Shown in pieces: positions 15,671 through 20,783 of a stretch of 32,687 nucleotides of DNA; position 1 is the first letter of the stretch, and each line of letters begins with the position of its first letter. The translations under genes were made by a program, and so were the position numbers. The notes beneath the pieces were generated by a model. The model had not been told where the DNA came from. It saw only the letters and a list, made by a program, of their open reading frames with translations, and did not search any database. This DNA comes from Candidatus Cloacimonadota bacterium. GTDB lineage: Bacteria; Cloacimonadota; Cloacimonadia; Cloacimonadales; TCS61. Location: NCBI GenBank assembly GCA_021734245.1, contig JAIPJH010000027.1, positions 1 to 32,687 on the forward strand, read 5' to 3'.

Positions 15671-15775
15671 AATTAGTAGCTGGTAAATTAGTCATTGGTG
15701 AATTAGTCATTGGTGAATTAGTCATTGGTAAATTAGTCATTGGTGAATTAGTCATTGGTGAACTAGTAACTGGTT
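15671..15775. repeat. 15-bp tandem repeat, seven units
   Basis: Seven units of a 15-mer with consensus AATTAGTCATTGGTG run without gaps; the first and last are diverged (AATTAGTAGCTGGTA, AACTAGTAACTGGTT). The period keeps one frame open, giving a KLVIG/ELVIG pentapeptide pattern, but the surrounding frame has no signs of a gene. Confidence 0.9.
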
Positions 15776-15787
15776 AATTAATAATTA

Positions 15788-15825: not shown

Positions 15826-16458
15826 TTATCTATACAATTTACCGTTCCAGACAATAGATTTTACATAAATTGTTTCACAAGCTCCAGCACCTTCATCGGT
15901 TCGGATGGTGCTGGTTCGCCACACGTAAGGTCTTTTATGTTCGAATGAAACATCAACCAAAAAACCTTCGATGCGCAAAACATCATCTTTCTTTATCTTA
16001 CCCATAACTTTTTTCAGGTTTTTGGTAGCTGGTATCAAATGGCAGTTGGCAGAATTATCTTTGATCTGAAGTTGCGGAATGGAATAACCGGGACCCCAGG
16101 AATAGCGGTAAAATCTTATGGTTTGTTTCACTTTAAGTCCTTCCAATGATTTCGGATCGCTCATTATTCCCCAGCCAAGAGCAAAATCCCAGGGAATCGT
16201 TTTAGCTTCGATACCTTTGTAATACTTCTTTTTATGCAGCAGCCTGGCATCGATTTGATAATTTGCTTTGGGAGTGAATTTGACTTTCTGATACAAATCA
16301 TTGCTAAATTGCGGTTCGGAAGTATGCTGCTGGATCGGTTGATTCTGAGGTTGTAGAACTTCACGAAAATCATAAGTAGCTTCAGGAATGGAAAGAAAAT
16401 AACTGATACTGAAATAAAGAACTGCAATTGCAGCGAAGACGGCAAGGATAACTTTCAT
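15826..16458 (-). CDS. Membrane-anchored extracytoplasmic protein of unknown function
   Basis: I do not recognise this 210-residue protein with a named family. It has one N-terminal hydrophobic helix (about 2-22, signal anchor or signal peptide), a Gln/Pro-rich linker and a globular part with WDFALGWGIMSD, RFYRYSWGPGY, NSANCHLIPA, KKDDVLRIEGFLVDV and a C-terminal GAGACETIYVKSIVWNGKLY. The order resembles a widespread conserved hypothetical envelope protein; two cysteines (in NCHLIPA and GACETIY) could form a disulphide. The frame opens at a TTG (16485), but the ATG at 16458 has GAGAGG upstream and starts the helix properly. It is followed by a convergent repeat spacer; its neighbours give no hint of function. 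Confidence 0.8.
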   Translation of the reverse strand: MKVILAVFAAIAVLYFSISYFLSIPEATYDFREVLQPQNQPIQQHTSEPQFSNDLYQKVKFTPKANYQIDARLLHKKKYYKGIEAKTIPWDFALGWGIMSDPKSLEGLKVKQTIRFYRYSWGPGYSIPQLQIKDNSANCHLIPATKNLKKVMGKIKKDDVLRIEGFLVDVSFEHKRPYVWRTSTIRTDEGAGACETIYVKSIVWNGKLYR

Positions 16459-16529
16459 TTCTAACCTCTCAATTTTAATCGACAAAAAATCTCAAATCTC
16501 AAATCTTAATTCGTAAATCTTCAATCACT

Positions 16530-18468: not shown

Positions 18469-19425
18469 CTATTTTTTGCGAAGTGTGGGAGTAACCTTGC
18501 GAACGAATTCTTTTTCATCTTCTTCTTCATCTTCTTCTGCTTTATCTGATTCTTTCTGTTCAGATTCATTTGTTTCTGCCTGTTTTTCTTGTTCTGGTTT
18601 ATCGGATTGTTTGTCAGCAATTTCCAAGTCAGTTTGAGGTTCGTCATCTTCAGTTTCATCTTCAAAAACTTCATCTTCAAAAACTTCATCTTCAAAAACT
18701 TCATCTTCAGGCGTTATAAGGTCTTCTGGTTCTTCCTCATCAATTTGTTCAAATTCTTCTTCTTTTTCTTCGGAAATATCGGTTAGTATCAGTTCATCTT
18801 CTTCATCCAGGTCATGTTCCAAATTTATCTCTTCACCTTTTTCTTCTTCAGGAAAGAAGACCTCATCATCCATTATTTTATCTTCTTCAATTTTATCGGG
18901 ATCTTCGATATGTTCTTCTTTATCTTCAAAAAGATCATTTAGAGGAGCAATAAAATGTTCATCTTCATCATTTTCTTTATCTTCTTCGATTTCTCTGATT
19001 TCTTCCTCCTCTGGAATCTCAACAACCGTTTCTTCTTGGTCATCCGGGTTTTCAGCATCAGGATCTTTTGTAGTAAACACATCATCATCAACTAGTGGCA
19101 AAGCTGGACTGATTGTGTCCTCATCTTTTTCTTCTTCTATCTCAGAAGAATCTTCCGGTTTGACTGCTGTTTCAGTGATCGGAACAAATTTTCTGGCATA
19201 GCTATCGTCATCGATGCGTTTGATAAGAGTATGTTTCCAATTGAATTCTTTGGCAGTTTCTAAAGTTTCCTTCATTTCCATAACAGGCTTTTCTGTGTGT
19301 GGTCGATAGAATTGCAGCCATACTACATGACTGATCGTGGAATGTTTTTCCAACCACGCTTTCCATTCTTGTTGAGTCTTAAAATATTGAATATTTCTGA
19401 TCTTACCTCTATCTTTACTTGCCAT
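18469..19425 (-). CDS. YdeI/OmdA-like N-terminus fused to a long acidic low-complexity tail
   Basis: Residues about 12-87 of this 318-residue protein align with the N-terminal domain of the neighbouring YdeI/OmdA protein (QEWKAWLEKH, VVWLQFYRPHTEKP, LIKRIDDDSYARKFVP against NWRKWLKDNH, ILWLIFYKKHTGKK, IIKRIDDEKYARKFTP), but the family's GWIDS is replaced by FNWKHT. The rest (about 88-306) is a Glu/Asp-rich tail with few hydrophobic residues and a perfect EVFED repeat, ending in the basic FVRKVTPTLRKK. No signal peptide or membrane helix is seen, so it is probably cytoplasmic. GGGAGG stands before the ATG at 19425. The tail is probably disordered and grew partly by repeat slippage; whether the protein has a function, for example as a scaffold or nucleic-acid mimic, is unknown. 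Confidence 0.75.
   Translation of the reverse strand: MASKDRGKIRNIQYFKTQQEWKAWLEKHSTISHVVWLQFYRPHTEKPVMEMKETLETAKEFNWKHTLIKRIDDDSYARKFVPITETAVKPEDSSEIEEEKDEDTISPALPLVDDDVFTTKDPDAENPDDQEETVVEIPEEEEIREIEEDKENDEDEHFIAPLNDLFEDKEEHIEDPDKIEEDKIMDDEVFFPEEEKGEEINLEHDLDEEDELILTDISEEKEEEFEQIDEEEPEDLITPEDEVFEDEVFEDEVFEDETEDDEPQTDLEIADKQSDKPEQEKQAETNESEQKESDKAEEDEEEDEKEFVRKVTPTLRKK
18655..18709. repeat. 15-bp tandem repeat within the acidic gene
   Basis: TTCATCTTCAAAAAC is repeated three times without change (18655-18699) with a partial fourth copy. It encodes the EVFED pentapeptide repeat and keeps the frame. Confidence 0.9.
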
Positions 19426-19511
19426 TTATCCTCCCGTATCAAATGACTGACGTAATAATAAACCTGAGATTATTTTGTGAAGAAAAAAGTTTCTGATACC
19501 ATTTTGGTAAT

Positions 19512-19544
19512 AAAAAAACCGCTGCAAAATGAGCGGTTTTTTTT
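19512..19544 (-). terminator. Intrinsic terminator of the nucleotidyltransferase gene
   Basis: CCGCT (19519-19523) and AGCGG (19532-19536) are flanked by A7 and T8, so the stem extends to 12 bp and is followed by a T run on either strand. It lies 20 bases past the stop of the minus-strand gene at 19565 and could work in both directions. Confidence 0.85.
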
Positions 19545-19564: not shown

Positions 19565-20329
19565 TTATTTCCATTTGTCTTCAAGTTCTTCAATCAGTTC
19601 AGCATATTTTGCTTCGATTTCTCGAACATTTAACATCATTTTCTTTAGACTGCTCACTTGCTGCATTTTTTCCAGCCATTCGCATTCGACATTAGGGAAA
19701 TCTCGGTAAGTGTACCTCAGTCCAAAATCACTTTTGGGAGATCTGTATTTAAGATTCATAAGTGGTGCAATTCGGTTTAGAAGCTGATTGTAGATAACAT
19801 AGGCATCGACTTTGTTTTCTCGCAAAATCTGTTTTTTTACGTCCAAGACAAGCAGCCAGTAAGAATTTTTTATCATCTTATAAAGCCTTTTACCTTTTGC
19901 CTTCACCTGTTCAACTGGTGTAGGAGTAGGATCGAAAAGCTTTTTCTTATCGAACCAGACAATAGAATTTCCATGCCTGTCGGATTCCATGAAGCGATTA
20001 CCGGAAGACAATTTTTCTAGGAGCAGATCCACATAGAAAAATTCGGGAGTATTTTCCAAAAGATAGAAGCATTGTGAGTGTCCGTGCCAGGATGGTTCCG
20101 GCATGCGAAATTTAGTTTTTATTCCATAGTGCTCATCCAGATATTTCTCGATCTTTTCAAAAGTTTCTTCCACTTTTTTGTCATCGCAGATCAAACCAAG
20201 ATCGAAATCTGAATATTCATCTAAATATCCGGTAGCAGCTGATCCACCTTCCCAGGCACAAAAGATATGGTTATCTTTTTCCAGAAGGTTCTTAAATTTT
20301 ACAATAAATTCTTCTCTAAAATTATCCAT
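19565..20329 (-). CDS. Nucleotidyltransferase-fold protein (DNA polymerase beta superfamily)
   Basis: The 254-residue product carries the nucleotidyltransferase signature WEGGSAATGYLDEYSDFDLG near residue 28-47, with the two metal aspartates in SDFDL, and a third acidic position in FFYVDLLLEKL. The C-terminal half is helical, as in aminoglycoside or lincosamide nucleotidyltransferases and in minimal antitoxin-like proteins; the real acceptor is not predictable. The frame reaches an ATG at 20362 that lies in a palindromic repeat; I chose the ATG at 20329, which has GGAG five bases upstream (20332 is the next option). The upstream sequence is part of a 181-182-bp tandem duplication, so the promoter region may be duplicated. 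A clear terminator follows at 19512-19544. Confidence 0.8.
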   Translation of the reverse strand: MDNFREEFIVKFKNLLEKDNHIFCAWEGGSAATGYLDEYSDFDLGLICDDKKVEETFEKIEKYLDEHYGIKTKFRMPEPSWHGHSQCFYLLENTPEFFYVDLLLEKLSSGNRFMESDRHGNSIVWFDKKKLFDPTPTPVEQVKAKGKRLYKMIKNSYWLLVLDVKKQILRENKVDAYVIYNQLLNRIAPLMNLKYRSPKSDFGLRYTYRDFPNVECEWLEKMQQVSSLKKMMLNVREIEAKYAELIEELEDKWK

Positions 20330-20332
20330 CAT

Positions 20333-20695
20333 TTCTCCATTCAACTCATTTTTTTTAATCATTCCTGAAAGGAATTAAATTTCCAGTGAATATCTGTACT
20401 TTTTTCAATCCCTTCAGGATTGTAGATATTCTGGTCTGGCTGCCGCAGGTTTTACCTGAGGCTATCAAGGTTGAACTCTGGCGAGTTCTTGAAAACGAAA
20501 TCATAGTAATCATTTTCTCCATTCAACTCATTTTTTTTAATCATTCCTGAAAGGAATTAAATTTCCAGTGAATATCTGTATTTTTTTCAATCCCTTTAGG
20601 ATTGTAGATATTCTGGCCTGGCTGCCACAGGTTTCACCTGCGGCTATCAAGGTTGAACTCTGGCGAGTTCTTGAAAACGAAATCATAGTAATCAT
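20333..20695. repeat. 181-182-bp tandem duplication carrying REP-like hairpins
   Basis: Two direct copies (20333-20514 and 20515-20695) differ at only a few bases, and the start of a third is seen up to about 20720. In copy 1 the hairpins are 20361-20375 (ATTCC/GGAAT), 20406-20422 (CAATCC/GGATTG), 20442-20462 (GCCGCAGGT/ACCTGAGGC) and 20473-20488 (GAACTC/GAGTTC). The left end of copy 1 is the ribosome-binding region of the nucleotidyltransferase gene. Confidence 0.9.
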
Positions 20696-20783
20696 TTCTC
20701 TATTCAAGTCATTTTGTGTCATTCCTTTCTTAGAAGAATAACATTAAAAAATTACAAAATATTTTAAAAAACATAGCTTCTAA

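Follow-up and report, generated by a model that had tools for sequence, protein, structure and literature searches.

In the stretch of Candidatus Cloacimonadota DNA analysed here (32,687 nucleotides of contig JAIPJH010000027.1, hereafter the window), we find a gene whose 318-residue product joins an N-terminal domain of the YdeI/OmdA type to a 233-residue acidic tail, and that a counterpart exists in G002, the genome of another Cloacimonadales bacterium within this genus (Table 1). Comparison with the ordinary members of the family at the level of sequence shows that the pair has lost a domain and a conserved site and has gained an acidic tail that is predicted to be disordered. We infer that the protein is most likely a neofunctionalised local duplicate, which would combine a docking domain with a polyanionic tail. 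The fuller account, viz., a functional, lineage-restricted offshoot of the YdeI/OmdA family that arose as a duplicate, shed the OmdA domain and its signature, acquired the tail and acts by docking together with polyanionic competition, is put forward tentatively, at a confidence somewhat short of even.

Table 1. Positions of the acidic-tailed gene, its parts and its neighbours in the window
Feature	Position	Strand	Remarks
CDS of the acidic-tailed YdeI/OmdA paralogue	18469..19425	-	ATG start, 318 aa; counterpart L022:1865-2608
YdeI-type N-domain, residues 1-85	19171..19425	-	predicted order b-a-b-a-b-b
NWKHT, at the GWIDS site of the family	19228..19242	-	alignments; substituted, no deletion
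RKFVP, the retained RKFTP motif, 5' of the tail	19180..19194	-	alignments
Acidic tail, residues 86-318	18472..19170	-	46% D/E by composition; mostly low pLDDT
15-bp tandem repeat encoding the EVFED repeats	18655..18709	-	3.7 perfect copies
Basic C-terminal end EFVRKVTPTLRKK	18472..18510	-	no conserved equivalent in G002
GGGAGG, ribosome-binding-site-like	19430..19435	-	4 bases 5' of the start codon; read from the sequence
Terminator-like inverted repeat	19521..19537	.	separates the nucleotidyltransferase and acidic genes; weak (1 found, 1.2 expected from shuffles)
Ordinary YdeI/OmdA paralogue, 186 aa	16530..17090	-	PF13376
Nucleotidyltransferase-domain protein	19565..20362	-	neighbour conserved in G002
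Uncharacterised ~210-aa protein	15826..16485	-	adjoins the acidic gene in G002, 71% identical

The original prediction, that the N-terminus is a diverged YdeI/OmdA paralogue, is borne out by 35% identity to the ordinary OmdA protein of the window (residues 12-85, E 1.3e-12) and by an alignment of 12 sequences. It further held that the GWIDS segment of the family had been lost; however, the alignment is gapless at this site, which is instead substituted, reading NWKHT in the window protein and GWKQT in that of G002. The pair is set apart by the absence of a signature, C-x-G-W-[IV]-[DS] (a name of our own, drawn from the alignments made here), in the place of which stand EFNWKH and RFGWKQ, respectively. 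C-x-G-W is retained in 43 of the 44 other loci bearing the domain, the exception being a locus that contains a stop (L009). The RKFTP motif survives in both species as YARKFVP (residues 76-82), immediately N-terminal to the tail, and its RKFVP (residues 78-82) falls within the last strand of the domain in the AF2 model. Hence, the tail is no insertion, contrary to the suggestion that the acidic part grew inside an ancestral domain; rather, it replaces everything that follows RKFTP in normal members, the C-terminal OmdA domain as well as the WSxxN stretch. The OmdA domain corresponds to PF13376, which is recovered in the C-terminal half of the ordinary window protein (residues 122-177, E 2.2e-16) as well as in P0002, L005, and L024, and is absent from both acidic proteins, these being without any Pfam family at E <= 1 (window) or E <= 0.1 (G002). 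We also rejected the possibility that another frame of the tail region hides what is left of a frameshifted OmdA C-terminal domain, as no match to that domain came up there at E <= 10 in the window or in G002. The acidic protein also matches no NCBIfam family, no PADLOC family and no entry in PHROGs, and on these grounds a role as part of a defence system was rejected.

The tail itself was correctly described as Glu/Asp-rich, with an EVFED repeat and a basic end: D/E make up 46% and K/R 9% of its 233 residues, EVFED occurs three times in tandem from the perfect 15-bp repeat, and the basic end is present in the translated reading frame. The fraction of D/E over the whole protein (0.38) is the highest among the 23 window ORFs compared, the next being 0.17, and the predicted pI is 4.07 as against 9.98 for the neighbouring OmdA protein. 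The use of Glu and Asp codons in the two tails is near that of 15 other window ORFs (e.g., GAA at 0.89 of Glu codons in the window tail versus 0.83 in those ORFs). Other acidic runs occur in the source genome, with seven consecutive acidic codons in six other contigs, all in unrelated proteins; one protein that we name GyrA-like by reading its sequence (L070, G000:C24:14000-17500) ends in a ~90-residue acidic tail that includes the basic piece KKRGRKPK. Also in G000, a small protein that looks secreted (L068, G000:C49:20000-23342) has repeats of 25 residues (SAQGDIKPDPWIVDDDEEEEESVVA, with a period of 75 bp).

The resemblance of the C-terminal end to RKFTP holds in part. The score of DEKEFVRKVTP against DDEKYARKFTP is reached by only 31 of 5000 shuffles, in a comparison picked after the fact, but the reading of it as a displaced RKFTP region fails, the protein having its own RKFVP intact and the G002 tail terminating in EEPDSESKK with nothing like RKVTP. 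We treat the resemblance as chance or, less probably, as a late partial copy. Motifs of the type [DE][VLI]F, chosen after inspection and counted such that one F may score twice, number 12 in the window tail (reached by none of 5000 shuffles), or eight with the tandem repeat collapsed (1/5000), and zero in the G002 tail; a conserved linear motif common to both tails was therefore sought without success and rejected.

The predicted structure follows the same division. In an AF2 model built from a four-sequence alignment, the block means over residues 11-80 are 79-90 and the elements follow the order b-a-b-a-b-b, which recurs in the N-domain of the modelled window OmdA protein, there followed by helices, while 205 of the 227 tail residues considered (86-312) lie in stretches with pLDDT below 50, as expected of a disordered tail, for which the original prediction had suggested a test. 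A charge-hydropathy index likewise puts the tails on the disordered side; however, it puts the N-domains slightly on that side too, so that the case for disorder rests on the AF2 confidence. Searches by sequence gave no solved structure (best E 0.25 for the acidic N-domain and 0.36 for the window OmdA protein), and Foldseek against the PDB gave no match at E <= 0.001 for either model, so that no named fold was assigned to them. Neither structure nor sequence searches returned a match naming a function. A second round of structural alignments of the acidic protein returned, in the 50 rows shown, Z-scores of 5.3 to 7.0 to YeeD/TsuB, Alba, IF3, SepF, SpoVS, and pieces of methyltransferases, the best of these rows being 8j4c_A (Z 7.0, rmsd 2.5 over 71), with the Alba-type Mth10b (3toe_A, Z 6.6, rmsd 2.5 over 68) and IF3 (9fco_J, Z 6.1, rmsd 5.1 over 79) among them, all below a Z of 8. 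Alba, the IF3 C-terminal domain, SepF, and the TusA-like YeeD, which we take to share one fold type, agree with the model in predicted element order (Z 5.4 to 7.0), but with Z below 8, a best Foldseek E of 0.023 and identities of 3-19%. As the best Z of 7.0 is within the range of unrelated small folds, this may be just a common arrangement, and we regard the modelled likeness as a lead toward nucleic-acid binding, not as evidence for binding.

The question of whether the gene is alive is addressed chiefly by G002, on a contig that matches record JAUSOT010000039.1 (a Candidatus Cloacimonadales MAG). The original prediction would have read a lack of acidic-tailed relatives, together with an absence of expression, as a sign of decay; a 247-residue counterpart was found at the same locus of this same-genus genome, between the genes for the nucleotidyltransferase (65% identical) and the 210-residue protein (71%), with AGGAGG just 5' of its start codon. 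Its N-domain is 57% identical over 84 residues, and its tail, also acidic, has 162 residues against the 233 of the window, with a net charge per residue of -0.20 against -0.37. Between the two N-domains pS is saturated at 0.84 and pN is 0.29; by this measure of the coding sequences the N-domain is under purifying selection. The order of residues in the tails has not been kept, their alignment score of 109 lying below the shuffle mean of 115.6 and being reached by 1464 of 2000 shuffles. Drift was simulated with no selection, no indels and equal base frequencies: neither tail remained open in any of 500 runs at 0.45 or at 0.9 changes per site, and at 0.2 changes per site the frame was still open in 2/500 (window tail) and 6/500 (G002 tail). 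The net acidity of the drifted window tail averages 0.03 (maximum 0.13) at 0.9 changes per site and 0.13 (maximum 0.21) at 0.45, as compared to 0.20 in G002; retained acidity hence carries less weight than the frame that stays open, since the maximum at 0.45 still exceeds the G002 value. The comparison thus shows selection on the N-domain and on the open frame; in both species the tail is open, acidic and predicted to be disordered, and the order of its residues is not maintained.

These observations bear on the reading of the gene as a decaying pseudogene, a truncated OmdA gene that runs by chance into low-complexity DNA. The loss of the OmdA domain and of the signature residues, the simple 15-bp repeat within the tail and an N-domain that evolves faster (57%) than the proteins of the neighbouring genes (65% and 71%) would all suit such decay. 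It is nonetheless rejected, and we consider it scarcely credible, because a second species has a counterpart preceded by a ribosome-binding-site-like sequence, because pN is far below the saturated synonymous divergence, and because simulated drift closes the frames. The acidic-tailed gene looks like one for a working protein and not like a dying gene.

The gene order around the region offers a view of its origin. In G036, of the same family, the genes run TolC-type, membrane fusion, RND, OmdA, methyltransferase and TolC-like, as they do around this part of the window, which additionally has the genes for the 210-residue, FlgD-type, acidic, nucleotidyltransferase, and transposase proteins. As compared to G002, a FlgD-Ig-type gene and the ordinary OmdA gene intervene in the window between the acidic gene and that of the 210-residue protein. 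In the tree, the acidic pair is monophyletic (100/99) and groups with OmdA proteins from its own genome family at a support (55/78) too weak to name its source OmdA; the N-domain from G002 is 49% identical over 67 residues to the window OmdA protein. Position, synteny and this weak tree make a local duplication of the OmdA gene the simplest reading, and probably the right one.

Several further elements lie in this region. A Y1 (IS200-like) transposase gene (PF01797, 20879-21319) adjoins the nucleotidyltransferase gene in G002 as well (67% identical), and being thus kept beside it is perhaps immobile now. A 182-bp tandem duplication (20328-20715, 2.1 copies, 95% matches) begins upstream of the nucleotidyltransferase gene and covers its 5' end, and a 15-bp tandem repeat with a 45-bp higher unit (15674-15780), readable as VIGELVIGEL, comes just after the RND pump gene. 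The 210-residue protein (L038-L047) has no Pfam match at E <= 1 and has matches in 15 of 40 genomes, that of the window among them; G000 and G002 each have a second copy. The inverted repeat between the acidic and nucleotidyltransferase genes was assigned by the tool to the + strand only; by eye it is flanked by runs of A and T, so that either direction is possible.

The presence of both paralogues at one locus of the window also invites the idea that the acidic protein is an antagonist or partner of ordinary OmdA, its tail covering the basic C-terminal domain of its basic sibling. The contrast of their pI values and the homology of their N-domains are in keeping with this idea; however, G002 (93% complete) has the acidic protein and yields no second match at E <= 0.001, and thus no ordinary OmdA, which makes such a pairing quite unlikely.

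The acidic-tailed build is narrowly distributed: of 124 genomes from the phylum, two, which belong to a single genus, have it, as against seven with the N-domain (the window's genome included); a search at the level of the class returned the same count and the same matches. G001, the third genome of the genus (74% complete), gave no match and has a different gene fragment upstream of its 210-residue-protein gene. In wider, partly overlapping samples, the N-domain was matched in 29 of 386 genomes, in 16 of 82 from the phylum of G168 and in 2 of 39 from the phylum of G379. We inspected 45 loci besides the pair, counting the window's own OmdA and leaving out a second G151 match, and recovered the domain in 44; the remaining one, L106, has four stops inside the match. 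None of the 44 has a net-acidic tail, a count on which 40 bear, each with at least 100 residues after the domain, since L009, L082, L086, and L111 have at most 58. The C-terminal part is net basic in most ordinary loci. L009 (G049:C4:1010-1225), with a YdeI-type N-domain, an in-frame TAG and an open frame of 97 aa, is probably a broken copy, and L106 (G389) is broken in like manner.

A scan of contigs with the whole acidic protein found no relative, and one with the acidic pair found the G002 record as its sole match, resting on two short patterns. Searches of 50,697 phage records gave no match; neither did the alignment of the pair against viral contigs, among which the OmdA alignment found one ordinary relative (L023). 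The N-domain has matches in 21 of 72,556 plasmid records, all below 60% identity, and the four inspected are all ordinary. A mobile or phage origin was accordingly rejected. The claim that no protein of this build has been described agrees with our having met the architecture nowhere else in these searches: as far as the sequences covered here indicate, a known domain and a known type of tail form a new combination.

We propose that a Cloacimonadota lineage probably acquired a second OmdA gene here by duplication. One copy, as the comparison shows, lost the C-terminal OmdA domain and C-x-G-W-I-D, and its RKF(T/V)P strand is now followed immediately by a long acidic tail that is predicted to be disordered. 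The N-domain, slightly more basic by the change of ID to KH/KQ, may dock on nucleic acid or on some partner. The polyanionic tail, which might mimic nucleic acid, would compete for basic surfaces. These might be either the protein's own basic surface, in an autoinhibition comparable to that exerted in Hfq by its acidic C-terminal tip, or that of a basic protein partner, for which the tail would serve as a chaperone or nucleic-acid mimic. At the formerly conserved site, the change of Ile-Asp to Lys-His/Gln raises the basic character of the core just where the tail turned acidic, which would fit an Hfq-like intramolecular contact. As there is no signal peptide by eye, the protein is presumably cytoplasmic.

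The main rival is a tail without a partner, an entropic bristle that keeps the N-domain soluble or a hydrophilin-like, excluded-volume chain in stress. Such a chain would have just the variable order and length (233 versus 162 aa), conserved composition and AF2-predicted disorder that we observe, but would not need to be so acidic: drift at 0.9 changes per site gives at most 0.13 as against 0.20 in G002, an argument of moderate force given that drift at 0.45 reaches 0.21. We judge this explanation possible, though appreciably less probable than a docking domain with a competing polyanion. The density of acidic residues could also serve to buffer Ca2+ or similar metal ions, the Asp/Glu-rich chain binding cations with the N-domain as a remnant scaffold; however, acid density is all that speaks for this, no spaced metal-binding motif is seen by eye and, a generic RND pump excepted, no recognised gene of the neighbourhood hints at metal homeostasis, making it very unlikely. 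More far-reaching, and improbable though less so than pairing with OmdA, is that a YdeI-type domain with an Alba/IF3-like nucleic-acid-binding fold was turned into a nucleic-acid-mimic regulator in one Cloacimonadota lineage; the acidic tail would there drive the release of what the domain holds, be it RNA, DNA or a protein that binds nucleic acid. We know of no described member of the YdeI/OmdA family that is a nucleic-acid chaperone; if true, this would be a new type of chaperone from that family.

The gene offers a clear natural case of a compact domain family that loses one domain and acquires a long tail, predicted to be disordered, in which composition is kept over sequence. The two orthologous tails provide material for testing which properties of acidic disordered regions are visible to selection, and the protein offers a way into the function of the YdeI/OmdA N-domain, which is widespread and poorly understood; the narrow distribution of the gene limits its reach. 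Salmonella YdeI (polymyxin resistance) is an unrelated OB-fold protein that has the name alone in common. We found no literature on disordered acidic proteins in Cloacimonadota and none combining DUF1905 with YdeI. The passages retrieved by one literature search report no tested function for a YdeI/OmpD-associated protein; in them, such a protein is a target into which patulin was docked in silico, another enzyme being finally preferred (PMC12846167), and an entry in proteome tables (PMC10533825; PMC9912610, in the latter among proteins affected by SigB or Bc1009).

Among known systems, the ordinary YdeI/OmdA proteins (~190 aa, as compared to 318 and 247 aa for the acidic pair) are alike in the N-domain, with its W..WL and W..(F/Y)(Y/F)K motifs and the hairpin IKxIDDxxYxRKFTP, whereas the acidic protein lacks their OmdA domain, C-x-G-W-I-D and WSxxN and has the acidic tail instead. 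The GyrA-like protein of the same genome likewise has an acidic tail in which a basic piece lies close to the terminus, but is unrelated and has a tail of only ~90 aa. In Hfq, the acidic tip binds basic residues of the core and competes with RNA, and HTLV-1 NC, gyrase, SSB, and the high-mobility-group proteins are given as further cases of acidic tails (PMC5606850). Hfq resembles the present protein in joining a small domain to a disordered C-terminal tail with acidic residues; its domain, however, is unrelated, and the tail described here greatly exceeds that of Hfq in length and is acidic for the most part. With the nucleic-acid-mimic tails of Hfq, gyrase, SSB, and the HMG proteins, it shares a strongly acidic C-terminal region, disordered by prediction, at -0.37 net charges per residue.
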